Virus record (IMG/VR): IMGVR_UViG_3300010413_000107
Location: 1 to 33,451 of that record
Reading direction: 5' to 3' (one strand)
Length of the DNA stretch: 33,451 nt
From: a virus
Position 1 is the first letter of the stretch. Each line of letters opens with the position of its first letter. Below are positions 1 to 33,451 of the stretch, piece by piece. The notes below the pieces were generated by a model. The model worked only from the letters and a program-made list of their open reading frames with translations, did no database searches and was not told where the DNA came from. The translations under genes and the position numbers were made by a program.

Positions 1-2998
1 AGGACTGAGTTGTTGTGGTTGAGCTGGTTGTTGTTGTAGTCGTTGTGGACGTAGTAGACGTTTCACCAGGCTCAGTCGTAGTTGTGGTACTAAAGGTTGA
101 TGTGGTCGTAGACGTAGTACTCGTAGTCGAGGACGTTGTCTCGCTCGTGGTGGTACTGCTAAAGGTTGATGTTGTCGAGGACGTAGTCGTGGACGTGGTG
201 GTACTGGTCGTAGTCGAGGACGATGTCGATGTTTCTGTACTTGTGGTCGTGGATGTGGTAGTACTGGTCGTGCTTGACGTGGTTGTTGTCAAAGTTGACG
301 TAGTCGTGGACGTGGTGGTACTTGACGTGGACGTAGTTGTACTTGACGTGGAACTGGTAGTCTCACTCGTGGTTGTTGTGCTGAATGTAGATGTTGTGGA
401 GCTTGTGGTAGTCGTAGTAGTCGTGGATGAAGTACTTGTCTCACCAGGCTCCGTTGTGGTTGTTGTGCTGAAAGTTGACGTTGAAGACATCGTACTCGTA
501 GTCGAGGACGATGTAGTGGACGTTGTCGAAGACGTGGTTGACGTAGTCGTAATTGACGTTGTCGAGGTCGTGGATGAGGTACTCGAAGTTGAGGTTGTAC
601 TCGTAGTCGTGGTCGTGGTCGAGAATGTTGTAGTAGAACTGATTGTACTTGTGGTGGATGAAGTCGTGGTTGACGTAGTCGTGGTTGTAGTACTTGTAGT
701 GGTCGTAGCACCAGTATCCCAATTCAAAATAACGATACCAGAATCATTACTACTATTGGTAATATCTGTCCAGTCACAAGAAATAGCATCAGTAGAATTA
801 TACCGCTGAATAAGGGCAGTTGCTCCACCAGGCGTAACACTTCCCTGATAATATTCAACCTCATCAAGTGTAAAATCCCCACTTGGAGTTGGGTCTGTCA
901 CTTGATCGTAAATATTAACAACTGATAGTATCCAATCCCCAACTTGATCTGGAGTAGCACTACCAGTAGTAATATCAGTATCAAGGCTGTAATCCGCTAT
1001 TGGATCAACTTGAGATACGCCACTTAAAGCATACACGAATACAGAACTAAAAGATGTGTTTACTGTGAATGTATGACCACTACCTACTGTTGGATTTAAG
1101 CAGTAATAGAACGTAACATACTGACCACCAGTTGTATCTGATGGTCCAAGCTCGGTCCAACTATTACCTTTACTATCTTCAAAACTGTGGGTTACATTAT
1201 AAAACGCAACGCCCACAATTATAAAATCAGCTCCAGTAGTGTCTATTGCTCCAGTGACATTAGCAGTAGCCCCAGAAGCCTTTACTTGAGCAACTATGTC
1301 AATAAGAGGGGCAGGAGGACCAGTAGTAGTCGTAGTCGAGGTTGTCGAGGTCGTGGTACTCGAAGTTGTAGACGACCGTGTAGTCGTGGACGTGGTACTC
1401 GAAGTTGAGGTTGTACTCGAAGTTGAGGATGTAGTAGTTGAAGACTTAGTAACCGTAGTCGTGGACGTGGTACTCGTAGTCGAGGTTGTCGAGGTCGTAG
1501 TTGTAGGTTGTTTCGTGGGTTCTTCATAAGTGTCAGTCCTAATGGTGATATTATCAATGAAGCCCTCAACTGTTTGAGAGTCCCCACCAAACATACCTAC
1601 CATTAATTCATCTACTGTCCACGATTGAGCGGAACCAGTAATACCACCAGAACCTATCACATCACCATTTATTTTAGCTTCCCAAGTGTAATCACTTAAA
1701 TCCCATTTTAATTGAAATACATAACGACTACCTACTCTAAGTTTTGGTCCAGGTATATAATTAGAAGTCCCATCATGACTAACCACAATTTGAACAATAG
1801 CATCCCCAGCACCTTTATAAAGCATAAATTGTCCGGGGCTATTGACACCGCCAGCACCATACAATCTTAGAAAATACTTCTCATTTCCACCGGTAGTAAT
1901 ACCACTTCCATGATGATATTCAGCGGTCACAAAAACTGTGCTAAGATTTCCTAAACCAAGATGTTCTACATAAGCATCTCTCCTTGTGCTTGAATCGTCA
2001 TAACATTGAGCCCTCAAACATTGACTATCCCACCCTTGAGGATATCCCAAATTAGATGTTGCATAATCCTCATCCATGACACAGTTAGCATGTTCAAGCG
2101 TCTCTCCCTCGCTCCATGTTTCTTCATACCCTGAACCTTCAAATCTTTCATCCCAAACAACCGCAGGTACTGGTTCAGTTGTGGTTGTAGAGGTCGTAGT
2201 ACTGGTGGTTGTCGAGGTCGTACTACTTGAGGACGTAGTACTTGAGGTCATAGTACTGGTGGTTGTAGAGGACGTACTACTGGTGGTTGAAGTCGTAGAC
2301 GAGGTCGTAGACGAAGACACCGTTGAGGACGTAGTACTCGTAGTCGAGGACGTACTACTGGTGGTTGAAGTCGTAGACGAGGTCGTAGACGAAGACACCG
2401 TTGAGGACGTAGTACTCGTAGTCGAGGACGTGGTAGTTGTAGTACTTGTAGTGGACGTTATTGAATAAATTGTAACTGTGGAAGCAACGGTGTTATTTAA
2501 TGGTGTATTACCATTGGTTACGTTGACTACCCTAAAAGAATAGACACCTCCTGCAACAGCATTTTCTGGGGATAGTCCCCATTGAGCTTCAATCCAGTCG
2601 CCAGAAGATATACTCAAAGTACCTGAATCTGGGAGAGTATTATCACTCTCATTCATGCGGGCAGTGCCAGTCCCACCGCAACCTGCGGGAGCTGTGGCAA
2701 TTCTCAGAGTTCCAGTACCATCATCAGAAGCTATCCCACTTACATCAGTCCAACATATTTCTGAGACATCTGAAACATCATTCCAACCCAAAGCATCACG
2801 TTGCCATTGAAGTTTTACTTGGGCGGCATTGGGAGCTTTATTACATGCTAAAGTTAAAGAATACCCAATTTGAACACACAGAATAAACTTATCAGTTGTT
2901 AGCCAATCAGTAAAAACGCCATTATCAGCAGTTTGTCCAGTCCAGTCTTCACCGGCAAGACGAGAGTTGGCGTGGGTATCAATGTAATAAGTTCCCAT
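1..2998 (-). CDS. Large modular tail fibre/adhesin with Ser/Thr linkers (3' end outside window)
   Basis: The frame opens with ATG at 2998 and stays open to the left edge, at least 999 codons, so the protein is partial. Three beta-rich modules are separated by tracts made almost only of Ser and Thr. Module 1 is residues 1-178. Linker 1 is about 179-273. Module 2 (275-494) looks like a concanavalin A/LamG-type lectin sandwich, judged from its alternating beta pattern and a closing segment with FIDNITIRTDT. Linker 2 is about 495-561. Module 3 (562-764) is another beta-sandwich-like domain. The last tract runs from about 765 to the edge, over 230 residues, broken by two TEPGET motifs. Position after the lysis cassette, size and lectin-like module suggest a host- or matrix-binding fibre. 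That role is inferred; the long open frame and domain/linker layout are read directly. Plus-strand open frames here rich in Val are only the complement of the Ser/Thr codons. Confidence 0.8.
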   Translation of the reverse strand, partial: MGTYYIDTHANSRLAGEDWTGQTADNGVFTDWLTTDKFILCVQIGYSLTLACNKAPNAAQVKLQWQRDALGWNDVSDVSEICWTDVSGIASDDGTGTLRIATAPAGCGGTGTARMNESDNTLPDSGTLSISSGDWIEAQWGLSPENAVAGGVYSFRVVNVTNGNTPLNNTVASTVTIYSITSTTSTTTTTSSTTSTTSSTVSSSTTSSTTSTTSSTSSTTSTTSSTVSSSTTSSTTSTTSSTSSTTTSTMTSSTTSSSSTTSTTTSTTTSTTTTEPVPAVVWDERFEGSGYEETWSEGETLEHANCVMDEDYATSNLGYPQGWDSQCLRAQCYDDSSTRRDAYVEHLGLGNLSTVFVTAEYHHGSGITTGGNEKYFLRLYGAGGVNSPGQFMLYKGAGDAIVQIVVSHDGTSNYIPGPKLRVGSRYVFQLKWDLSDYTWEAKINGDVIGSGGITGSAQSWTVDELMVGMFGGDSQTVEGFIDNITIRTDTYEEPTKQPTTTTSTTSTTSTTSTTTVTKSSTTTSSTSSTTSTSSTTSTTTRSSTTSSTTTSTTSTTTTTGPPAPLIDIVAQVKASGATANVTGAIDTTGADFIIVGVAFYNVTHSFEDSKGNSWTELGPSDTTGGQYVTFYYCLNPTVGSGHTFTVNTSFSSVFVYALSGVSQVDPIADYSLDTDITTGSATPDQVGDWILSVVNIYDQVTDPTPSGDFTLDEVEYYQGSVTPGGATALIQRYNSTDAISCDWTDITNSSNDSGIVILNWDTGATTTTSTTTTTTSTTTSSTTSTISSTTTFSTTTTTTSTTSTSSTSSTTSTTSITTTSTTSSTTSTTSSSTTSTMSSTSTFSTTTTTEPGETSTSSTTTTTTTSSTTSTFSTTTTSETTSSTSSTTTSTSSTTTSTTTSTLTTTTSSTTSTTTSTTTSTETSTSSSTTTSTTTSTTTSSTTSTFSSTTTSETTSSTTSTTSTTTSTFSTTTTTEPGETSTTSTTTTTTTSSTTTTQS
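2268..2430. repeat. 78-bp in-frame tandem duplication in a Ser/Thr linker
   Basis: Positions 2268-2345 and 2346-2423 are identical 78-bp units, and a third copy starts at 2424 but diverges after a few bases. The unit is 26 codons long, so linker 1 of the left-edge fibre is lengthened without changing frame. Perfect identity in a tract where other Ser/Thr stretches use mixed codons points to a recent slippage or unequal recombination event. Confidence 0.9.
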
Positions 2999-5780: not shown

Positions 5781-6065
5781 CTATACCGTAGAGACCACAA
5801 CTGTGGTCGTGTTTACGTTTGTTCCCCCTGCGACAGGCGGGTAAGTTGTCGTGGTTGATGATGTAGCCGTCGTAGTCGTTGAGGAGGTTGTTGTTGATTG
5901 TGTGTTCGTTGTGGTAGTAGAGGACGTTGTGGAACTCATAGTGGTTGTCGTTCTCTCGTCTAACCACTCGATTGTCTGATACGTCACACGAACATTAGGG
6001 GAATTAAAATCTTCTTCCAAATATTCTATGGACGTATAAGTATTTCTAACTGTGACATTAGGCAT
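5781..6065 (-). CDS. Short fibre-region protein dominated by a Ser/Thr tract
   Basis: A 94-residue protein. Residues 1-38 form a small repeat-like unit: NVTVRNTY..IEYLEEDFNSP is echoed by NVRVTYQTIEWLDE. Residues about 39-77 are nearly all Thr/Ser. The end (PPVAGGTNVNTTTVVVSTV) is again beta-prone. The ribosome binding site is weak (AGGAAATATAA). It lies ten bases after the lectin-like fibre gene and is probably a minor surface component. The duplicated N-terminal unit and the tract are directly visible; the role is inferred. Confidence 0.6.
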   Translation of the reverse strand: MPNVTVRNTYTSIEYLEEDFNSPNVRVTYQTIEWLDERTTTTMSSTTSSTTTTNTQSTTTSSTTTTATSSTTTTYPPVAGGTNVNTTTVVVSTV

Positions 6066-7152: not shown

Positions 7153-7737
7153 CTATGCCGTAGTGGTTGTAGATGTAGTACTACTTGTTGAGGAAGTAGT
7201 TGTACTGGATGTAGTCGTTACGGTATAAACGTTCCTTGTTCCTGCAAGACACCAAGCAAGGTTTGCTAATGTAGCATCAGGAGAAGCTGGGGCCACGATA
7301 GTTAAAATTTGACCCGGAGTAAATGTCGTATTCAAAGCACAAGCGAAGGTAGCTGTCGTTCCTCCTGCTCCAAATGTAGCTGTCGCAAATTCTACACCGC
7401 CTTTTCTCAAACTAAAGATAGCCGTAGCTGTCGCCGCAACTGACGCTATCATCTTACTCAGAGACATGCCAGCTTCGAACATAACGTTCCTTACAAATGG
7501 AAAACGCATAATGGTAAGACTACCAGTAGGACTACCATTATAAGAACCACCTATATCGTAGGAAGAATCAAAGTATTCAAGAGCAGATTCTCCACTACCG
7601 ACCCTCGGTATCTTGCCCTTTTTTCCAGTAAAGCTACCACCAAAAACAGCATCAAGCTCCGCTAAAGGAGCGTTCATATCGCTGTCTTCATACGTGGTTA
7701 CCCCATCTTGATATGGTGTATGATGATCGGTCGTCAT
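7153..7737 (-). CDS. Tail fibre-region protein with Ser/Thr tail
   Basis: A 194-residue protein. Its start (HHTPYQDGVTTYEDSDMNAPLAE) resembles the attachment segments that open many phage fibre proteins. The middle is small-residue-rich beta structure (about 75-165), and the last ~24 residues are Ser/Thr only, ending TTTTA. The gene overlaps the upstream coiled-coil gene by TAATG. Position after the hub proteins supports a tail-tip or fibre role. The tail's final bases ACTACGGCATAG recur at the end of the connector gene at 20789. Confidence 0.65.
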   Translation of the reverse strand: MTTDHHTPYQDGVTTYEDSDMNAPLAELDAVFGGSFTGKKGKIPRVGSGESALEYFDSSYDIGGSYNGSPTGSLTIMRFPFVRNVMFEAGMSLSKMIASVAATATAIFSLRKGGVEFATATFGAGGTTATFACALNTTFTPGQILTIVAPASPDATLANLAWCLAGTRNVYTVTTTSSTTTSSTSSTTSTTTTA

Positions 7738-16966: not shown

Positions 16967-17719
16967 TTCGTTTCTCCTGAGACCACATTCTCAAAGCACC
17001 TATACCAAGGAAGTGTTTTTTCATTCTCGTAGTCATTTCGTCACGTTCTTCCTTGCTCAGATGCTTGTAAGAATCTGGGTTACCAAACATAGTCGGAGTT
17101 TCAGTTTTTTTGGACTTCACGGGAACTTTGGGTTCATCTTTAAAAGTAGCCCCCATGATCCTCGCTTGATTCTTCCAACTCTCGAGGTCTCTTTTTCGCC
17201 AATGATTATAGAGAACCGTTACTTGTCCTAATGTTAGTCCGCCTTCTCGGAATCTTTTTTGGTAGATGTCTTCAAGTCGGTATCCGTAGATTTGACAGAC
17301 TGCTGTAACGGCCTCTTCGAGGTCTGAATCGTCTCCGCTTGATTCATCATCTTCTCGAAGAGGCCCCTCACTTTTTTTATTAGGGACTCATAATTCTGTT
17401 CAAAGACGATTTCTGCAATATCGACCGCTTGAGTATTAGTTATATCCTTTAGTAATTCCTCTACGTTTTCTTTGTCTGTATCAACAATATATCCCAAAAT
17501 CAATGGAATATTTTGTTCTAAGAGTCCAATAGCAATAGCCGCCGTTTCTACATCATCTCCAGCAGAACCAAACGCTGTAAATGCTTCTTTAATAACACTT
17601 GTAGTGGCGAGTTGATCTCCAAGACTCATGGGATAGACCTTGAGTTCCCTCAGATTGCGACGGCCTATTTTAGTCGTCGCAATCTGGGGATTAAGTTTCT
17701 TACTGTCCTCAGCCGGCAT
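16959..17719 (-). CDS. Tail assembly chaperone GT fusion by -1 frameshift
   Basis: Near the end of the G gene the codons ACC AAA AAA GAT give an A6 run (17255-17260). Stepping back one base enters a frame that is open across the G stop (17234-17236) for 98 further codons to 16959 and includes RFREGGLTLGQVTVLYNHW. The ATG at 17156 inside this frame has only a poor, too-close ribosome binding site, so independent initiation is unlikely. If slippage occurs here the fusion would be about 253 residues. This matches the lambda G/GT design, where GT bridges tape measure and tube subunits. The frame relation and the open overlap are read directly; slippage frequency is unknown. Confidence 0.72.
17234..17719 (-). 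CDS. Tail assembly chaperone, G-type
   Basis: From ATG at 17719 the product is 161 residues (MPAEDSKKLNPQ...), helical and acidic, with a C-terminal segment rich in Lys, Thr and Ser. TTAGGAGAAACAAA gives this start a very good ribosome binding site. An upstream ATG at 17746 would add nine residues (MKKLVRRNK), but those codons are mostly the ribosome binding site itself and that ATG has no proper site of its own. Position between tail tube and tape measure is diagnostic for the G/GT chaperones that coat the tape measure during tail assembly. Its 3' end holds the slip site for the -1 frame. Confidence 0.8.
   Translation of the reverse strand: MPAEDSKKLNPQIATTKIGRRNLRELKVYPMSLGDQLATTSVIKEAFTAFGSAGDDVETAAIAIGLLEQNIPLILGYIVDTDKENVEELLKDITNTQAVDIAEIVFEQNYESLIKKVRGLFEKMMNQAETIQTSKRPLQQSVKSTDTDLKTSTKKDSEKAD
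17240..17260 (-). promoter_or_regulatory. -1 frameshift site: A6 slip run plus small downstream stem
   Basis: On the minus strand the slip run CAAAAAAG is followed, four bases on, by TCCG-AGAAGG-CGGA, a four-pair stem. The run allows a P-site Lys tRNA on AAA to re-pair with AAA after moving back one base, then AGA is read. The stem is modest, so stimulation could also come from another structure. Confidence 0.6.
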
Positions 17720-17750
17720 TTTGTTTCTCCTAACGAGTTTCTTCATAGCC

Positions 17751-18395
17751 TTATGAAGTTGTTGTGGTTGACGAAGTTGAAGTCGTGGTTGTCATTGTGC
17801 CTTGTCCGTCATCCCAGTAGATACGACCTAAAGGTTTGTCGTCCCAAGCCGCATGACCACCAGACATACCACTATCCGCACGTTTTGCTTCAATGGTAAT
17901 CGGAACTGCGGCGATTTCTTCCGTCTGAAAGTCTACTTCAGGAGCAGACAGAACTTGCGCTCTCGGGAAGATAATCGTCATGGTGTTTACCGCATCAGGA
18001 AACGTGTAAACAGCTTCCATTCTGACATACTGCGGCGTAGCTAAAGCACCGAGCCCGATACTTCCCGAATGTGCGGCTGAATACTCAGACGCAGACGGAT
18101 CAAGCCCTTTAGCAAGCGCCATATTCGCAGGAGTCAACTCTTTAAACGAACATTCGAGCATAGCAGACTCCCGCAAAGGAAACACCGCATCTTCAAGTAA
18201 CGGATACCCCGATTCTAATTTGTAAAACTCTTGGTTCAGGGTCAGCTTGGTGTTAGCAAGCGCACCAATAGAATCGGTTGAAGCAAGAATAGGTCGAATC
18301 TGCCCCACAAAGGTGGCAGAGTTACCGATCCTTATTTGAGCAAGTCCCAACGGGACTGTCGTGGTGTCCTTGGTAGTTGGTCCAGTTCTTGGCAT
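17751..18395 (-). CDS. Major tail tube protein with Ser/Thr tail
   Basis: A 214-residue protein of the size and place of a siphovirus tube subunit: after the tail terminator candidate and just before the G/GT chaperone genes. The body is beta-rich, with KLTLNQEFYKLESGYPLLED (about 50-69) and a late VPITIEAKR strand. The final ~16 residues (TTTTSTSSTTTTS) are a Ser/Thr tail, which would be displayed many times along the tail if exposed. The ribosome binding site AGAAAGGAGGTGAGGACTA is near-perfect, fitting a highly made structural protein. Confidence 0.76.
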   Translation of the reverse strand: MPRTGPTTKDTTTVPLGLAQIRIGNSATFVGQIRPILASTDSIGALANTKLTLNQEFYKLESGYPLLEDAVFPLRESAMLECSFKELTPANMALAKGLDPSASEYSAAHSGSIGLGALATPQYVRMEAVYTFPDAVNTMTIIFPRAQVLSAPEVDFQTEEIAAVPITIEAKRADSGMSGGHAAWDDKPLGRIYWDDGQGTMTTTTSTSSTTTTS

Positions 18396-20788: not shown

Positions 20789-21481
20789 CTATGCCGTAGT
20801 TGTGGTTGTAGACGTTGTTGTAGAGGTAGTTGAGCTTGTTGAGGTTGTTGTAGTTGATGGTGCGGGACGTGAATCTTCACCAACCTCAAAAACATCTACT
20901 CCTTCGTAACGTCTCGGTTTAATCGTTTCAACACGATAGTATGATGTAGAGGTTAGTCGAATACGGTCAAGCGTTTGCACACGCAAAGATTCGGGCAGGT
21001 AGAGTTCGTGTACTTCGAGTCCTAAGTACCCTAACTCCTCATCTGTGACAAGATCATGACCATATAGTGGGGTCGTCAAAAGTCCATAAACTCGACCCTT
21101 CACCATTTGCCACGTTGTTAATTTCTGGTAGTTCGAATCCCAATTATCTGACTCATAAGGTCGGATTATGTCAAGTACAACATTACATTTATAAAGAACC
21201 ACATCGTACTTGATTATTGAGTCCTCAAACATCATTGGGGTTATGTTCATTACGATGTAAATGTCCCCAGTCGTAATAAACTGAACATAATCTCCACCGA
21301 CAGCTAACGTGTTGTATGGAAACCACGCTTCAAGGAAGAACTCACGAATAAAAGGTTTAGTTACCTGACTATTCGCTTTAAAATATGTTTTCTCCCCTGT
21401 TAAATCTCCGCTGTCTCGAAGTATCTTATATGAAGTGCCTACCTCATCCAATACTTCTTCGATGTCAGGACCTATCGTCAT
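20789..21481 (-). CDS. Head-tail connector/stopper candidate with Ser/Thr tail
   Basis: A 230-residue beta-rich protein with VQFITTGDIYIVMNITPMMF (about 64-83), typical of small barrel connectors that report 'status after measurement' in stopper families, then a mixed domain. The last ~24 residues are STTTTSTSSTTSTTTSTTTT plus TA. It lies between the 149-residue adaptor-like gene and tail completion genes. Stoppers are usually about 100-130 residues, so this protein is longer than usual, and the identification is by context. Confidence 0.55.
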   Translation of the reverse strand: MTIGPDIEEVLDEVGTSYKILRDSGDLTGEKTYFKANSQVTKPFIREFFLEAWFPYNTLAVGGDYVQFITTGDIYIVMNITPMMFEDSIIKYDVVLYKCNVVLDIIRPYESDNWDSNYQKLTTWQMVKGRVYGLLTTPLYGHDLVTDEELGYLGLEVHELYLPESLRVQTLDRIRLTSTSYYRVETIKPRRYEGVDVFEVGEDSRPAPSTTTTSTSSTTSTTTSTTTTTA

Positions 21482-22296: not shown

Positions 22297-23622
22297 TTAG
22301 GTGGAAGTTGTGGTTGAGGTTGAACTCGTGGTAGTCGTTGTGCTTGTTGCAGACTCACCAGCTCTGGAAGTAACATCAATGGAGTAAATTGCATCCGTAT
22401 GATACAGAACAGGCAAACCTTTGTCTTGCACCCGAATCCACGTACCCTCGGGGTCCCACTCATCTTTACGATCTGTGTAAAGACCCCAATGACGACCAAG
22501 TCCGAAGGGGGCTTGGATGTACCGACTAATCGGGGTTCCCTCTACGGAAGATGCCATCATTATGAATTTGTCACCCGGCACATAGTACCGTTGCATGGTA
22601 ACATAATCCTCACCGGCTACATAGCTGTTGGTGAACGGGTATTCGATTTGGATTTGATTGGTGAACTTGTTGACAGACAGAATGTAACGTTGCTCGTATG
22701 TATCCGCATTGCTACGATCCCAGATCGTCAGTTTTTCGTATGCGTCAAAATCCGACGCATCGTTCACTTGAATCCATGTGGTAGACCCGCCGGTTACAGC
22801 ACCGGTGATCTCGGCTTTGACCTCATACATCTCATCGTAAATGATAAAGTTCTTGATGTCGAGGAGAGTGCCGATTACCTTGGCGTTGACAAGAGCAAGG
22901 GCATCGATGCCAGGGCCAGCCATCAGAGTGCCGTTACCAAAAGCATTGGTTTGCAACAGAGCGCGGATCGAAGAATCTTTACCAATCATATCAAGGACTT
23001 GGCTGTTGCAGATAGCAATATCCACTACTCCACCGTTTGCTTCGGCAATCTTGCGTTTACCGTCTTTAACGTCACCCAAAATGTCCTTACTACCACCAGT
23101 ATCCCAGTAGTAAGACGAGCCAAGGGTAACACGATGATCGGACGGGATACCATAGTTAATGGTGACCATATACCCGCCCTTTACTTGGTAGCTGAAACCG
23201 TTGTTGATGAACATGTTGGAGAACATCCACTCTTTTCTCCTATTTGCTCGGTTTACGATGTCAGCTAAGTTATCCGCCAACGTATCAGCGGCAGACTGAT
23301 ACGCTGAATCTGTACCCGGTTTACGAAGATTGTTTAAAAACTCCTCGTCAAAATACCGCTTTTCTTTCCAATAAGCGGCGGTCGCTTGATGCTGTGCGAC
23401 GCCGTGCGGTGCAGAAACGGGTGCAGGCGCTCCCGGGGGAACGAACGGAACCATACCTCTTCCACCTCTTTGCGATTCCCACTTAATTGTGTCGGACTCC
23501 GCATTTCGTGTTCCGGGGAAGAGACTTGAGAACATCAGGTTGGGTGCCGCTTTGAACCTCGTAATGAAGTCCTGTAGTACTTCCAACCTGAGAATGGGTA
23601 TTTCAGAAGCTCCACGTGGCAT
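22297..23622 (-). CDS. Major capsid protein, lambda E-like, with Ser/Thr tail
   Basis: A 441-residue protein with the layout of the lambda gpE group: an N-terminal EIPILRLEVLQDFITRFKAA, a Gly/Pro-rich arm (GGRGMVPFVPPGAPAPVSAP, about 53-72), a helical spine around 105-135, and beta-domain strands including NFIIYDEMYEVKA (HK97 fold). The C-terminus, from about 420, is nearly all Ser/Thr (ATSTTTTTSSTSTTTST), which lambda gpE lacks. The ribosome binding site GAAGGAGGTGAAAACTT is shared base for base with the decoration gene. It forms the icosahedral shell on the scaffold and is stabilised by the decoration protein. Confidence 0.92.
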   Translation of the reverse strand: MPRGASEIPILRLEVLQDFITRFKAAPNLMFSSLFPGTRNAESDTIKWESQRGGRGMVPFVPPGAPAPVSAPHGVAQHQATAAYWKEKRYFDEEFLNNLRKPGTDSAYQSAADTLADNLADIVNRANRRKEWMFSNMFINNGFSYQVKGGYMVTINYGIPSDHRVTLGSSYYWDTGGSKDILGDVKDGKRKIAEANGGVVDIAICNSQVLDMIGKDSSIRALLQTNAFGNGTLMAGPGIDALALVNAKVIGTLLDIKNFIIYDEMYEVKAEITGAVTGGSTTWIQVNDASDFDAYEKLTIWDRSNADTYEQRYILSVNKFTNQIQIEYPFTNSYVAGEDYVTMQRYYVPGDKFIMMASSVEGTPISRYIQAPFGLGRHWGLYTDRKDEWDPEGTWIRVQDKGLPVLYHTDAIYSIDVTSRAGESATSTTTTTSSTSTTTST

Positions 23623-28345: not shown

Positions 28346-30256
28346 TTAATATTTTGCAAGAAGTCCCTGTCCTGGTGAGAAGAAGCCAAATCCCGCACTT
28401 GATCTTCTCAGTCGAAAACTGTCAAAACCTAATTCTCTACCACCATATAAACCCCATCCTGTTGCATAGACTGAATCATCTTGTATTCCCCCTCTTTCAA
28501 ACTTCTCCCTACTACCAAATACATAGGCTGATGTTGTAGGGTCAGAGGATTTAGTCCAATGATCGAAAGCACCCATTTCTTCCCGTAAGATGTCTTCTGT
28601 TTTCGAGCCCGGTGTTGGGATATGTGGGGCTTTAAAACGTCCTTCTTTACAGCAGATATAGAACTCTTTAAAGGCTGCTTTTTGTCTGTCGTAGTTTGGA
28701 TAGATCGCTTCGAATTTGATTGTTCTTTCTTCACACCAACCTCCTATGTCCCAAGCACCCCAACGTTCTGAGCATACCACATCTATCCCGTCATACTCTA
28801 TATCTAATAAATCCATAGTCTCTTTGACAGCATTAACCGCATGATTTTCCACATTCATAAGATATAAAAGTACATAAAAGTACTTGGGAGCTGCTTCTGA
28901 GAGTCTTGCCGTAAGAGGATTGGTCTTACTACCAATTAACCCCTTAGCAATAGCCACCAATACCGTTCGAGCTTGTCCCCTTACAGCGAGAGGATCCCCG
29001 AAGTCTAATCCTACCAATATAGCCCAATCAGTATCAAATACCTTAGACAACTCCATCAACATGTCAAAAGTTACAGGATAGTTGCTATTTGCATCTATTC
29101 TGGCTATATTGTCGAGGTAATACATTCGATTGTCTATTTCCTGTATCTGATTATATAGGAAATCAGTATCAAATCCCTTTTCAGAATTTGAATCAACGCT
29201 GTTTAGTATGTCGTTCCTTCGTGTGACAGCTTCCATGATCTTCGCATTATTCAAATAATCCCCATCGATAGCTATAATTCTCATAGCGTCAATCAATTCC
29301 TGAGTAAATATCTGAGTGCGACCAGCTTCCCATGTGTTTAAGAAATATCGCTCGAACTCACCGAATGGAAATTTTGCCTTGTAATCTGCAAGTTGTCCAG
29401 CCGTCATGTGGGGGTTCATGTAGTCGTCAATGTCCCCAGTTTTAGAGGCTCGGTAGTTAAAAAACACAGTATGGGTTTGTTTGGTGACGTAGTTTTCGTA
29501 GAGTTGATAGAGGACGTGGGTCTTCTCGCTCACAGTCGAGTCGATTACCCCAAGTGCGTTAGGCATGTTTCTTATACTACCGTCAAGCTGGACGAAGAAC
29601 TTGGGCTTCTTCATGTCAAAGATTTCTGAAAATGTGTATCCCGTAATATTTGACACGATACCGCTAAAGGATGATATAGAACGAATCAAAGATCGAATCT
29701 GTCCATCAGTACCTTTGAGCCTTATCTCTTTCTCCTGTATATTACGTTTTCCTACCGCAGTTAATAGATTAGGTGAATTTAAGATAATATCCCGCATGAT
29801 GTCATAATGAACGAACTTGACCTGATCCTTACTATTCGCACCCAACATTATCTGCTGACGAGGGAAGTTAAAGAACTTCCATAACTGAATAAGACATGCT
29901 AAGAGACTCTTACCTTCACCACGTTGCCAACAGAGGACAATGAGACGGTATAAAAAACGACCATCAGACATTCTAAGAGCTTCACGACAGATGTTTTGTT
30001 GAGTCCACCACATGGTTGCGTAGGATTTCTTGGTTTCTGGATGAAGTTCGGTGGGTAGTTCCTTCATCAGCACCCAAGCAACTGTGGCGGAGCCAGGTGG
30101 GTAGATCGGTACGCAAACGTTTTCATTAGCCCAAGCTACAAATCCCTCTCCACCGTCACGAAAACTCACTGGTTCGTACTCCGGTGTCGGGGGAGTAAGT
30201 AAATCAGGCTCACGAAACCCCGTCACTATACCATGACGATTCACGAGCTTGCCCAT
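28346..30256 (-). CDS. Terminase large subunit
   Basis: A 636-residue packaging motor. The ATPase domain has the Walker A sequence QRGEGKS (111-117) and a Walker B-like YTFSEIFDM around 207-215 with the catalytic Glu at about 211. The nuclease domain starts near residue 410 with ILVGLDFGD (Asp 418 as a likely metal ligand) and a second acidic motif near YDGIDVV (488-494). The protein moves DNA into the prohead through the portal and cuts concatemers. The ribosome binding site AAAGGAGTTAATC overlaps the upstream gene's stop region. Confidence 0.93.
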   Translation of the reverse strand: MGKLVNRHGIVTGFREPDLLTPPTPEYEPVSFRDGGEGFVAWANENVCVPIYPPGSATVAWVLMKELPTELHPETKKSYATMWWTQQNICREALRMSDGRFLYRLIVLCWQRGEGKSLLACLIQLWKFFNFPRQQIMLGANSKDQVKFVHYDIMRDIILNSPNLLTAVGKRNIQEKEIRLKGTDGQIRSLIRSISSFSGIVSNITGYTFSEIFDMKKPKFFVQLDGSIRNMPNALGVIDSTVSEKTHVLYQLYENYVTKQTHTVFFNYRASKTGDIDDYMNPHMTAGQLADYKAKFPFGEFERYFLNTWEAGRTQIFTQELIDAMRIIAIDGDYLNNAKIMEAVTRRNDILNSVDSNSEKGFDTDFLYNQIQEIDNRMYYLDNIARIDANSNYPVTFDMLMELSKVFDTDWAILVGLDFGDPLAVRGQARTVLVAIAKGLIGSKTNPLTARLSEAAPKYFYVLLYLMNVENHAVNAVKETMDLLDIEYDGIDVVCSERWGAWDIGGWCEERTIKFEAIYPNYDRQKAAFKEFYICCKEGRFKAPHIPTPGSKTEDILREEMGAFDHWTKSSDPTTSAYVFGSREKFERGGIQDDSVYATGWGLYGGRELGFDSFRLRRSSAGFGFFSPGQGLLAKY

Positions 30257-30258
30257 GA

Positions 30259-30825
30259 TTAACTCCTTTCAGCTTTCCTCCTTACGAGTTTCAGCTTGCG
30301 CTGTTCCTTTAACGCTTCCTTCTCCATGTTCTCGTAGTATCCTCTATTACTGGGAACGAGATCAGCGACATCAGGTTGAGATTTCTTCCCCACACCCAAC
30401 TCTCTCCAAGTGCTATCAATCGTTTTGATAACTTCCCTGATTTCCTTAAACAACGAATGTATCTTAGTGGTTCCAGATTTCGTCATTTCGGGTATCTGTG
30501 AGGTTTGTAAAGCCATCTCAAGTATCTTAAACCGTGCCAACTGCTTATATAACGGGATTATCTGCATTCCAACTCTGAACAAGTCAAAGTTATCCATCTC
30601 AGAAGCAAGGTTATCCAGTATCATCTTCTCAACCTGCTTGAGGTACTTCATCACAACCACACATTTTCGATTAAGCTCCGTGGTAAAGTAGGGACATATT
30701 TGGTAAGAGGGGCAGTTTTCCATGTCACAGTCCTGTATAGCAGTCCATACTGGGAACGTTTCATCCTGAAGTTTACGCTGATTGACCTTCATCAATCCAT
30801 AGTCTTTATATTCACCGTTATCCAT
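30259..30825 (-). CDS. Terminase small subunit (candidate)
   Basis: A 188-residue protein, first of the virion block and directly before the large terminase, the normal place of the DNA-recognition subunit. Helical from about 55 to 150 with a central amphipathic stretch (QIIPLYKQLARFKILEMALQ), ending in a basic KLVRRKAERS tail. The N-terminal part has four Cys (33, 38, 44, 55) that could bind a metal, which is unusual for small terminases. A strong promoter and AAAGGAGATGTC lie just upstream. Assignment is by position and size; no DNA-binding helix-turn-helix was recognised. Confidence 0.6.
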   Translation of the reverse strand: MDNGEYKDYGLMKVNQRKLQDETFPVWTAIQDCDMENCPSYQICPYFTTELNRKCVVVMKYLKQVEKMILDNLASEMDNFDLFRVGMQIIPLYKQLARFKILEMALQTSQIPEMTKSGTTKIHSLFKEIREVIKTIDSTWRELGVGKKSQPDVADLVPSNRGYYENMEKEALKEQRKLKLVRRKAERS

Positions 30826-30859
30826 GACATCTCCTTTGTTTTAAAGTGATTTTTAAGCC

Positions 30860-30889
30860 ATCATAAAGCACTCCGATAGCGTTTGTCAA
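30860..30889 (-). promoter_or_regulatory. Strong sigma70-type promoter for the virion block
   Basis: TTGACA (30884-30889) and TATGAT (30860-30865) on the minus strand, spaced 18 (17 if the -10 is read as TTATGA). It points into the small-terminase candidate, whose start is 35 bases from the -10. No other equally good promoter was noticed for that gene, so this is probably the late promoter or one of its elements. Confidence 0.78.
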
Positions 30890-30924
30890 GCAAAAAATGG
30901 GTTTGATAAGCCTCTATACAGTGG

Positions 30925-30969
30925 ATTACGCAGAACTATGTAATTCCTTACATAGTTTTAACAGCGTAA
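30925..30969. repeat. Large hairpin upstream of the virion promoter
   Basis: AACTATGTAA-TTCC-TTACATAGTT (30934-30957) is a perfect 10-bp stem, and TTACGC on the outer left pairs with GCGTAA on the outer right to extend it. It may be a terminator for a rightward transcript (followed by TTTTAACA), an operator or a cruciform. Confidence 0.6.
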
Positions 30970-30977
30970 AACAGGCC

Positions 30978-31031
30978 TAAAACACTGGAAAACACTCTCG
31001 AGGCATAGAAAAACACTGGAAAAACACTCAA
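30978..31031. repeat. Two near-identical ~20-bp direct repeats (AACACTGGAAAA type)
   Basis: The segment AAAACACTGG followed by an A-run and ACACTC occurs at 30978-30999 and 31008-31031, about 30 bp (roughly three helical turns) apart on the same face of the DNA. This suits cooperative protein binding upstream of the virion promoter. Confidence 0.6.
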
Positions 31032-31068
31032 AAGACATCATATTTAGGCATATATTACGCAGGGAAAG

Positions 31069-31088
31069 TGTCTCAAATTAATGAGACA
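31069..31088. promoter_or_regulatory. Palindromic operator-like site TGTCTCA-N6-TGAGACA
   Basis: A perfect 7-bp inverted repeat with a six-base AT spacer. The same 14 bases TGTCTCAAATTAAT recur at 31774-31787. Fits a site for a dimeric repressor. Confidence 0.6.
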
Positions 31089-31090
31089 AC

Positions 31091-31187
31091 CTTTTAGGAG
31101 CTTGCTACACGTTAAAAAGTCTGCGTTATATGATTTTCGCTTAAAATCGTCATTATCATTAACGTAGACTTTTAGGAGCCCGCTACA
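31091..31187. repeat. Hairpin bracketed by direct repeats TTTTAGGAGC..GCTACA
   Basis: Near-identical ~21-bp segments of the form CTTTTAGGAGCnnGCTACA flank a large dyad. The outer arms are AAAAGTCTGCGTTA and TAACGTAGACTTTT (13 of 14 pairs), and GATTTT-CGCTT-AAAATC forms a perfect inner stem. The whole could fold into a branched RNA or cruciform. Confidence 0.6.
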
Positions 31188-31283
31188 TCGATTTGACTAC
31201 ACAGCTATATAACTATACTTGTAGTTACGTTTATTATGATCCGTGAGCCGTGGGGAATATTATTGGTATATTTATGTTGTGTG

Positions 31284-31357
31284 GGAACCGGGTTCCGGTG
31301 TCTGTAAGACACAATACAAGGCTACTTTTGCAAGCAAAACCACGAAATATTTTGTGG
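31284..31357. repeat. Cluster of three small dyads
   Basis: GGAACC-G-GGTTCC (31284-31296), GTGTCT-GTA-AGACAC (31298-31312) and ACCACGAAATATTTTGTGGT (about 31338-31357) lie close together. They could be part of a folded RNA or of protein sites in the control region. Confidence 0.45.
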
Positions 31358-31459
31358 TCGAGTCTCGGTAGTCAAGAGATGGGGGCTACTACGCTGTGAT
31401 ATTTCGAGGGGGGCTACATTTTTTGTAGCTTATACGCTATATGTAGCACAAAATATGAT

Positions 31460-31566
31460 GTAGTTATATAGTTATATAGTGTCTGATAATTATTATTATG
31501 TAAACTTGTATTGTATAGTTAACTCCGTATGTAGTTATATAGTTATATAGTTGTATAGTTATATAG
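31460..31566. repeat. TAGTTATA iterons, forward orientation
   Basis: The 20-mer GTAGTTATATAGTTATATAG occurs at 31460 and again at 31531, and the second copy continues with TTGTATAGTTATATAG. The basic unit is about 8-9 bp (TAGTTATA/TAGTTGTA). Single units also occur at 31583, 31615 and 31631. Confidence 0.75.
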
Positions 31567-31672
31567 AAAACAACATGCCCCATGTAGTTGTATAGTTATC
31601 TTCATATATTGCGATGTAGTTTTCGATATATGTAGTTGGCATCACGTCTACTCAAGCGCTTTACCGCAAGGC

Positions 31673-31971
31673 AACTATACAACTATACAGCTACAAAAAA
31701 ATAAAACTACATAGCTACGAAATATAGTTTTATAGATAACTACATAGGGACTGTCTCAAATGTCTCAGTTTTATGTCTCAAATTAATTGCAATAAATTAT
31801 AATAAATTCAGTTAGTTATAGCGTGAGACAGTATTGTATCAAATAACAATTCGAGACAGTTCGTATTGTTACTTTTTTTTCATACTTTTATGTAATTAAA
31901 TATCTAATATTATGCAAATAATGTCACAGCTAACTATACAACTATCTAACTACATAGCTATACAACTATAT
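31673..31971. repeat. TAGTTATA iterons, reverse orientation
   Basis: The complementary form (AACTATACAACTATACAGCTAC at 31673-31694, and a 40-base run at 31931-31971) dominates right of about 31660, so the array is roughly symmetric around 31640-31670. Further copies lie at 33187-33270, outside the two plus-strand genes. Confidence 0.7.
31750..31860. promoter_or_regulatory. Cluster of TGTCTCA / TGAGACA sites
   Basis: TGTCTCA at 31752, 31761 and 31774, TGAGACA at 31824, and GAGACAGT at 31825 and 31853; ACTGTCTC at 31750 is the inverse of GAGACAGT. The motifs flank an AT stretch. With the palindrome at 31069 they look like operators of a single regulator acting on both sides of the control region. 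Confidence 0.55.
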
Positions 31972-32018
31972 CTTCCGAACTCATGTATTTGAATTTATTG
32001 AAAAAAAAATTTTTAAAA

Positions 32019-32083
32019 TATATGGTATATTTTTTTTATTTTATGCTTTATATGGTATTAAACTTGCTTACTATATAAGGTAT
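32019..32083. repeat. Three TATATGGTAT-type repeats
   Basis: TATATGGTAT at 32019-32028 and 32049-32058 (30 bp apart) and TATAAGGTAT at 32074-32083. They lie in the A/T-rich stretch just upstream of the first plus-strand gene, the last one overlapping its possible -10, so they may be regulator sites. Confidence 0.5.
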
Positions 32084-32086
32084 GAT
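32058..32086 (+). promoter_or_regulatory. Possible promoter for the plus-strand genes
   Basis: TATGAT (32081-32086) with TTAAAC 17 bases upstream (32058-32063). The -35 is weak; the -10 is good and lies 43 bases before the first start codon. Confidence 0.45.
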
Positions 32087-32129
32087 CGCAACGATAAAAA
32101 AAACAACTAAACTACAAGGGGGTAAAGCT

Positions 32130-32294
32130 ATGAAAAATTTAAAAGGTAAAATTTTTACAATGGTATTAATCGGTGTTCTGTTTTTTTGCGTGAGTTACCT
32201 CATTTCAAAGCGCTTTTATATCAACTATGAAATTTCGAGCGCTTACAGCTATACTCACAGCGTAAAGCAAGCTATTGAAGAACTCACAAAATAA
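32130..32294 (+). CDS. 54-residue single-pass membrane protein
   Basis: From ATG at 32130 (AAGGGGGTAAAGCT upstream) the product is 54 residues: a basic N-terminus (MKNLKGKIFT), a hydrophobic segment (about 10-26, VLIGVLFFCVSYLI), and a polar tail. An in-frame ATG at 32082 would add 16 residues but has no ribosome binding site. It is AT-rich and, with the next gene, the only plus-strand coding in the window. Two AGCGCT sites fall inside it. Function unknown; an early membrane peptide is possible. Confidence 0.58.
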   Translation: MKNLKGKIFTMVLIGVLFFCVSYLISKRFYINYEISSAYSYTHSVKQAIEELTK

Positions 32295-32370
32295 GGGGTA
32301 AAATTAGGGGTAAGGATAAAAGCGCTTTACCTCTAAATTTAGCGCTCAAGTATAAGGGGTAAAAAAAACT

Positions 32371-32775
32371 ATGAATAAAATTGAAAAAATACATGGTATG
32401 ACGGTAAAAAAGATACAAGAAGTACTATCGGGTAAAGGTATCAAGTACGATAGTAAGGCAAAAAAAGAAGAATTAAAAGACATCGTATCTAAGAACTCGA
32501 AAGCATTTTACATCGGTGTTCATAGCGGTAGCTATTACTTCAGCTCAAGACGCAACACGCACGCTGGCAACGTCTGTCGGCTTATAGCGCTTGAAGAAGT
32601 AAAGTCTAAGCAAGATATTCGCAAAAAATATACAACAGCGTACACGTTTAAACAGACGCTTGAGCGCTTGAACTTTGAAGGTATTATTATTTTTACCGAT
32701 AAAAAACACAGCGCTTTCGAGTTAACAAGTAAAGGTAAAGAACTTGCTAAAAAGTATGTCAAAATTTACGGGTAA
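32371..32775 (+). CDS. Small HeH/SAP-type DNA-binding protein (candidate)
   Basis: A 134-residue basic protein. Residues 10-40 (MTVKKIQEVLSGKGIKYDSK, then AKKEELKDIV) match the HeH/LEM-like helix-extended loop-helix pattern common in phage proteins, a DNA- or protein-binding unit. The C-terminal part (FKQTLERLNFEGIIIFTDKK and a final helix) looks like a winged helix. The ribosome binding site AAGGGGTAAAAAAAACT is one copy of the local GGGGTAA repeat. Three AGCGCT palindromes lie within the gene and many around it. A terminator follows. It is a candidate binder of the repeats. Confidence 0.66.
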   Translation: MNKIEKIHGMTVKKIQEVLSGKGIKYDSKAKKEELKDIVSKNSKAFYIGVHSGSYYFSSRRNTHAGNVCRLIALEEVKSKQDIRKKYTTAYTFKQTLERLNFEGIIIFTDKKHSAFELTSKGKELAKKYVKIYG

Positions 32776-33451
32776 GGATAAAACAAGGGGTAAAATTTAA
32801 ACAATAACTTTAAATAGCTTGAGCGCTAAACTTAGGGGTAAAGTGAATAACTTTACCCCTTATTTTTTGTCTTGAGCGCTTGAGTAAAGCGCTAAATTTA
32901 GAGGTAAGGGGTAAAGGTAAAGGTAAGGGGTAAAGCGCTTGAGTAAAGCGCTAAATTTAGCGCTTGAGCGCTTACAAGGGGTAAAATTAGGGGTAAGGAT
33001 AAAACAAGGGGTAAAGTAAAGCGCTTTACCTCTAAAGCACTTGCAAGGGGGTAAAGGTAAAGCACTTGAGCGCTTACAAGGGGTAAGGGGTAAAGGTAAG
33101 GGGTAAAGGTAAGGGGGTAAAATTAGGGTAAGGATAAAACAAGGGGTAAAGTAAAGCGCTCAAGCGCTCAAGATAAAAAAAGAATATAACTACATACATA
33201 GTTTTATGCTATATATAGCTTTAAATAATTATATAGTTATAGATAACTACATAACTAAACTTGACTACATACAAAACCCAAACCATCGTTTGCAGAAGAC
33301 AGCAGAAGAATAAGGACGATATCCCCAAACCATTTTAATTCCGGCGCTCTCCCTCGCCCCTTCTGCCCCACGCCCCACCTCCTTGACTTCTCCCTACATC
33401 CGCTCCATATTTTACGATCTGAAAAACTGGCAACGGCTCCCAAACCCCCAC
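32776..33451. other. Gene-free right end: repeats, iterons, then C-rich end
   Basis: No supportable gene. The terminator, GGGGTAA and AGCGCT repeats fill it to 33170; TAGTTATA-type sequences follow at 33187-33270; from about 33325 the base composition becomes C-rich (for example CCCTCGCCCCTTCTGCCCCA). An open frame on the minus strand here has no ribosome binding site or recognisable product. Confidence 0.55.
32834..32868 (+). terminator. Intrinsic terminator after the HeH-like gene
   Basis: AGGGGTAAAG-TGAATAA-CTTTACCCCT forms a perfect 10-bp stem followed by TATTTTTTG. It sits about 60 bases after the stop of the 134-residue gene. The stem consists of one direct and one inverted copy of the local GGGGTAA motif. 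Confidence 0.82.

Follow-up and report, generated by a model that had tools for sequence, protein, structure and literature searches.

A dense array of AGCGCT palindromes confined to one locus upstream of the terminase genes of a phage

Results

The window that we analysed is a 33,451-bp stretch of phage DNA in which an array of AGCGCT palindromes lies upstream of the terminase genes, 1.4-2.3 kb from the small terminase gene. Adjoining the array is an AT-rich stretch (positions 31700-32099) with a GC content of 0.24. The features of this part of the window are as follows.

28346-30256, minus strand: terminase large subunit (PHROG 9, E=2.9e-11)
30259-30825, minus strand: small terminase-like gene, so called from its position beside the large terminase gene; it starts the leftward late module
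31417-31980, no single strand: words TAGTTATA / CTACATA with an 8-bp period, on both strands; also in relatives L007 and L014
31655-31660, no strand: outlying AGCGCT in the terminase-side spacer
32119-33150, plus strand: directional word (A)GGGGTAAA(G), interleaved with AGCGCT; 14 forward copies, 1 reverse
32130-32294, plus strand: 54-aa ORF, preceded by AAGGGGGT; two AGCGCT inside
32209-33168, no strand: AGCGCT palindrome array, 18 copies, extended preference approximately T-W-R-AGCGCT-Y-W-A
32353-32580, no strand: divergent allele patch (window versus G001), inside the largest AGCGCT-free interval
32371-32775, plus strand: 134-aa ORF, HeH/LEM-like at residues 10-39; three AGCGCT inside
32834-32867, plus strand: intrinsic-terminator-like hairpin, AGGGGTAAAGT / ACTTTACCCCT followed by a T run, after the 134-aa gene
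33183-33280, no strand: second short block of TAGTTATA / CTACATA words, beyond the array as seen from the terminase genes

No family match was found for the small terminase-like gene. The product of the 54-aa ORF is probably a small membrane protein, as judged from its predicted sequence. Searches of the region returned no Rfam match to an RNA family and no DNA similarity to phage records. The C-rich end of the window (33255-33451) is unlike the remainder, is not present in G001 and had no match in IMG/VR; it is possibly a chimeric contig end.

A wider view of the genome comes from a near-identical IMG/VR record, IMGVR_UViG_3300009506_000122 (67,201 bp; G001), which covers window positions 1-33159 at ~99-99.7% identity, ends inside the array and reaches 34 kb past the left end of the window. 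The plus strand at its left end carries a DnaB helicase module together with a cut-off upstream ORF. The rightward genes encode the DnaB helicase, a clamp, a DNA polymerase, a clamp loader and gp32-like, UvsY-like and UvsX-like proteins, and further ones encode an exonuclease, SbcC-like and thymidylate-synthase-like proteins and an N6_N4 methylase domain. The left end of G001 and the right end of the window do not overlap; if these ends join, the array has the late module on one side and the replication module on the other. The divergent module beside the array probably leads to the replication genes, and the phage is probably a virulent tailed phage with T4-like replication. For host assignment, the only leads were terminases of 47% identity on two MAG contigs, too distant to name a host, and no clustered AGCGCT triplets were found in the two genomes that encode them. 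We note that a single ORF at L026:4486-6891 (plus strand) joins a radical SAM domain to a C-terminal N6_N4 DNA methylase domain and adjoins PP-loop (QueC-like) and thymidylate-synthase-like genes, a neighbourhood with a possible function in DNA base modification.

The window contains 19 copies of AGCGCT, one at 31655 and 18 at 32209-33168, and none elsewhere. An earlier, sequence-only reading had reported these 18 copies as far in excess of chance and as continuing through two coding genes, and both claims hold: sequences simulated locally for the array with an order-1 Markov model carry 0.59 copies on average and at most 4 (5,000 runs), shuffled versions of the whole window average 3.5 copies and never exceed 9, and the 54-aa and 134-aa ORFs contain two and three sites, respectively. 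All 18 GCGC tetramers of the array belong to an AGCGCT. That reading had also pointed out that a similar density elsewhere in the phage or host would make the array a general feature of composition. For the phage this explanation is refuted, as all 17 copies in G001 are at 65720-67117 and positions 1-65000 contain none, against 7.4 expected from trinucleotide statistics.

AGCGCT is one of many palindromes missing from this genome. In positions 1-65000 of G001, 24 of the 64 hexamer palindromes are absent, all hexamer palindromes together number 513 against 992 expected, and CTAG occurs 0 times against 199 expected. This very strong avoidance of palindromes resembles restriction avoidance; broad palindrome loss is an anti-restriction strategy that is stronger in non-temperate phages (PMC6286503). 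Among the 24 missing palindromes, only AGCGCT (19 copies) and AGGCCT (1 copy) are found at window positions 30826-33280. Two relatives are likewise poor in AGCGCT (0 versus 6.7 expected and 1 versus 6.1 expected), as is the phage contig from a gut MAG (0 versus 5.1), but G016 is not (4 versus 1.7); the absence of AGCGCT outside the locus may therefore reflect avoidance either of restriction or of stray binding sites.

The 18 array sites fall in 16 distinct 24-bp contexts, too many for the copies to descend from a single duplicated unit; the sites appear instead to have been selected or recurrently created. To compare their flanks with those at random array positions, we removed two near-duplicate contexts. 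Position +1 is T or C in 26 of 32 cases (p 0.002), position +2 is never C (p 0.002) and position +3 is A in 25 of 32 cases (p <0.0004). Of the 18 array sites, 12 have the form T-NN-AGCGCT-NN-A, as does the outlier at 31655. This extended near-dyad resembles the site of a dimeric DNA-binding protein, unlike a bare Type II restriction hexamer. The longer dyads that had been described are present in part: the GTAAAGCGCTTTAC dyad is found at 33017-33030, whereas flanks differ among sites. The array sites, 8 to 245 bp apart, have neither the helical phasing nor the even spacing that plasmid iteron arrays generally show (no significant period, p=0.43). RNA folding of the array gave z-scores of -5.2 and -9.6, which we set aside as evidence because repeated palindromes give such values anyway.

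The excess extends to the coding sites. When synonymous codons were shuffled with phage codon usage, the two AGCGCT in the 54-aa ORF compared with 0.06 expected (p=8e-4) and the three in the 134-aa ORF with 0.09 expected (0/20,000 shuffles); with each ORF's own codon usage, the expectations were 0.38 (p=0.03) and 0.21 (p=2e-4), respectively.

The 134-aa ORF differs between the window and G001 at 20 nucleotides (1, 2 and 17 at the three codon positions, respectively) that yield a single amino-acid change, Y to F, which shows that the gene is real and under protein-level selection. Residues 10-39 match Pfam HeH with 23.2 bits (E=5.7e-5), below the curated cut-off of 28.9; the protein matches PHROG 1539 (Arc-like repressor) with E=2e-8, and residues 92-132 give a very weak winged-helix match, below the Pfam cut-off. 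No homologues were found in phage and plasmid records or among PDB sequences, and in IMG/VR the near-identical G001 alone carries one. Single-sequence AlphaFold gave no confident structure (mean pLDDT 34.6). Most of the substitutions that separate the window from G001 in this region fall in the patch 32353-32580, which stops 7 bp short of the AGCGCT site on one side and 6 bp short of that on the other; a random 228-bp patch would be bounded by AGCGCT in this way with a probability of 0.011. The patch probably arose by recombination between strains, and a role for the AGCGCT sites in such recombination is only a suggestion.

Between the AGCGCT sites lies a second, one-directional word, AGGGGTAAA. 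Two of the 14 GGGGTAAA copies occupy the Shine-Dalgarno position of the two ATGs and most of the others precede no start codon; the sole reversed copy completes the terminator-like hairpin at 32834-32867. The pattern AGCGCT-AGCGCT-AGGGGTAAA has six matches in IMG/VR, of which five are chance pairs and the sixth is G001.

Among relatives, L007 (terminase 93% identical) shows partial conservation of the terminase-side spacer, including the TAGTTATA words with their 8-bp period, and L014 (terminase 79%) shows a weaker one, again with these words; the contigs of both end before the array. L007 has one AGCGCT in the stretch that matches 31655, though the surrounding DNA has diverged. In several more distant relatives, word repetition reaches its highest level, or at least a local peak, upstream of the terminase, with different words; others, G013 and L020, have no such peak. 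The clearest case is G007 (89 kb, terminase 50-52% identical), in which 15 of 20 copies of TGAA-N5-TTCA fall within a 3.6-kb region in which CATTCA/TGAATG reaches 20 per kb, against 0.69 elsewhere; there, dyad words are dense at a boundary between leftward and rightward genes.

L037:14437-15620 and 17590-17880 (G007): dense TGAA-N5-TTCA / CATTCA dyad words

This dyad array lies at a gene-module junction equivalent to that of the AGCGCT locus, a comparison that is exploratory because the regions were picked after word enrichment had been seen. TCGCGA was considered as a swapped palindrome in G003 (15 copies versus 0 AGCGCT) and rejected, as its copies are dispersed and form no array. At L053:4770-6420, in a phage contig assigned to the bin of a Paludibacteraceae MAG, AATTTCCA and TCAAATC words make up a spacer of ~1.6 kb.

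Discussion

We tentatively favour, with somewhat less than even confidence, the notion that the array is a clustered cis-acting locus at whose dyads a phage protein binds as a dimer, the 134-aa HeH protein being the likeliest candidate, and that the locus works as a transcription switch, an origin or both. A binding array had been proposed before, and it fits best because the contexts differ, the flanks are constrained, the sites are enriched within genes and the word is absent elsewhere; the HeH-like protein is plausible as a candidate binder by its position and predicted fold class. The AT-rich stretch beside the array, the DnaB module of G001 and the localized dyad array of G007 speak for the wider reading as well. 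Made inside the array, this protein would bind the dyads cooperatively and autoregulate its own gene. The resulting nucleoprotein complex would control the divergence of early and late transcription units and might open the adjoining AT-rich DNA for replication to start, and AGCGCT would be kept out of the remaining genome by avoidance of restriction, of titration, or both. The sub-cut-off HeH and winged-helix matches, the lack of phasing and the lack of homologues outside G001 count against this reading, as do the gap between the array and the replication module and the generally word-repetitive look of the region.

An alternative that we regard as unlikely, if a serious one, is that the array is a replication origin proper, in which the dyads are iterons for an initiator, perhaps the product of the cut-off ORF upstream of DnaB, and the HeH protein is incidental. 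The AT-rich flank, the iterated sites and, at the left end of G001, the genes for the DnaB helicase and the replisome all speak for it, as does the likeness to the lambda origin and plasmid iterons, where clustered repeats for a replicon-encoded protein have an AT-rich neighbour; in lambda the repeats are dyad-symmetric, O dimers binding near-perfect inverted-repeat iterons beside the AT-rich region (PMC5043065). Unlike iterons, however, the 18 sites here are shorter (only ~12 bp), lie at irregular, unphased intervals over ~960 bp and are spread through two genes. Furthermore, the candidate initiator has no family match, and an unclosed gap separates the left end of G001 from the array.

Somewhat less probable again, in our estimate, is that AGCGCT is functionless and has proliferated by slippage and illegitimate recombination in a fast-evolving spacer. 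The array region does look generally word-repetitive, as recombination or slippage can produce: it has exact repeats of 19-29 bp and near-repeats of up to 62 bp, the G001 assembly breaks at it, and other repeated words occur upstream of the terminase in several relatives. Against such proliferation stand the distinct contexts and flank preference of the sites, their enrichment inside conserved coding sequence and the absence of AGCGCT from the other 65 kb.

The relatives also permit a broader and decidedly speculative proposal, which we think improbable. Each phage of this terminase clade would ban a dyad from most of its genome and concentrate it in an array at the late/early boundary, with the motif swapped between lineages (AGCGCT here, TGAA-N5-TTCA in G007), so that array and binder form a fast-switching self-recognition locus that selects, among co-infecting genomes, the one to be expressed, replicated or packaged.

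That a methyltransferase of the phage or its host acts on AGCGCT and that the array gates packaging or replication, a variant of the methylation or identity tag proposed earlier, seems to us more doubtful still. The model would be P1, which requires Dam methylation at pac for proper packaging and which likewise has clustered hexamers near the terminase and a methyltransferase of its own (PMC12707154). G001 has an ORF with an N6_N4_Mtase domain, the terminase genes adjoin, and the phage and two relatives avoid AGCGCT in the manner of a restriction target. Unlike the P1 hexamers, however, the array is more distant from the terminase, with 1.4 kb between it and the small terminase gene, and the sites have a preference at +1 to +3, beyond the hexamer, that is not expected of a plain Type II target and disfavours such a tag. 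A packaging site, which had also been suggested, is possible; nothing specific supports it.

Other known kinds of site, like iterons, each match some features of the array and fail others. The stoperators of Cluster A mycobacteriophages are likewise numerous and phage-specific, with a motif that changes between relatives (PMC6550527), but they are 13 bp long, asymmetric and scattered through the genome, whereas AGCGCT is palindromic and confined to 1 kb and only its companion AGGGGTAAA is directional (14:1). The SPbeta repeats bound by MrpR (PMC10516654) are also phage-specific operators repeated for one regulator, but their 15-bp motif lies at scattered promoters and not in one dense array. 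The SAS/ESAS of Cluster K mycobacteriophages (PMC3203893) similarly combine a one-directional Shine-Dalgarno-like word, rare or absent elsewhere, with a dyad; SAS mark gene starts across half a genome, whereas here an annotated start follows only 2 of the 14 AGGGGTAAA-type words, and the others are crowded into one spacer. We consider it very improbable that the array is a repressor stoperator or operator cluster of a temperate phage, in spite of the many sites for one protein, the directional words and the HeH/Arc-like repressor match, since its sites are confined where stoperators are spread, no integrase or partition gene was found among the proteins scanned, and palindrome avoidance is as strong as is more typical of non-temperate phages.

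The interest of the locus lies in the opposition between a banned word and its concentration at one place, together with the turnover of the motif. With 0 copies in 65 kb and 18 in 1 kb, it is a clean case for distinguishing restriction avoidance from confinement of binding sites. For uncultured phages whose proteins lack homologues, dense and confined dyad arrays whose motif turns over between relatives would allow origins or master switches to be approached from sequence alone.

We note separately that Thr/Ser-rich tails (TTTTSSTTTT) end several predicted phage proteins, the major capsid protein included, and that window positions 1-2500 are filled with repeat DNA like that which encodes these tails. 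The genes concerned are as follows.

5781-6065, 7153-7737, 17751-18395, 20789-21481 and 22297-23622, minus strand: Thr/Ser-tailed proteins
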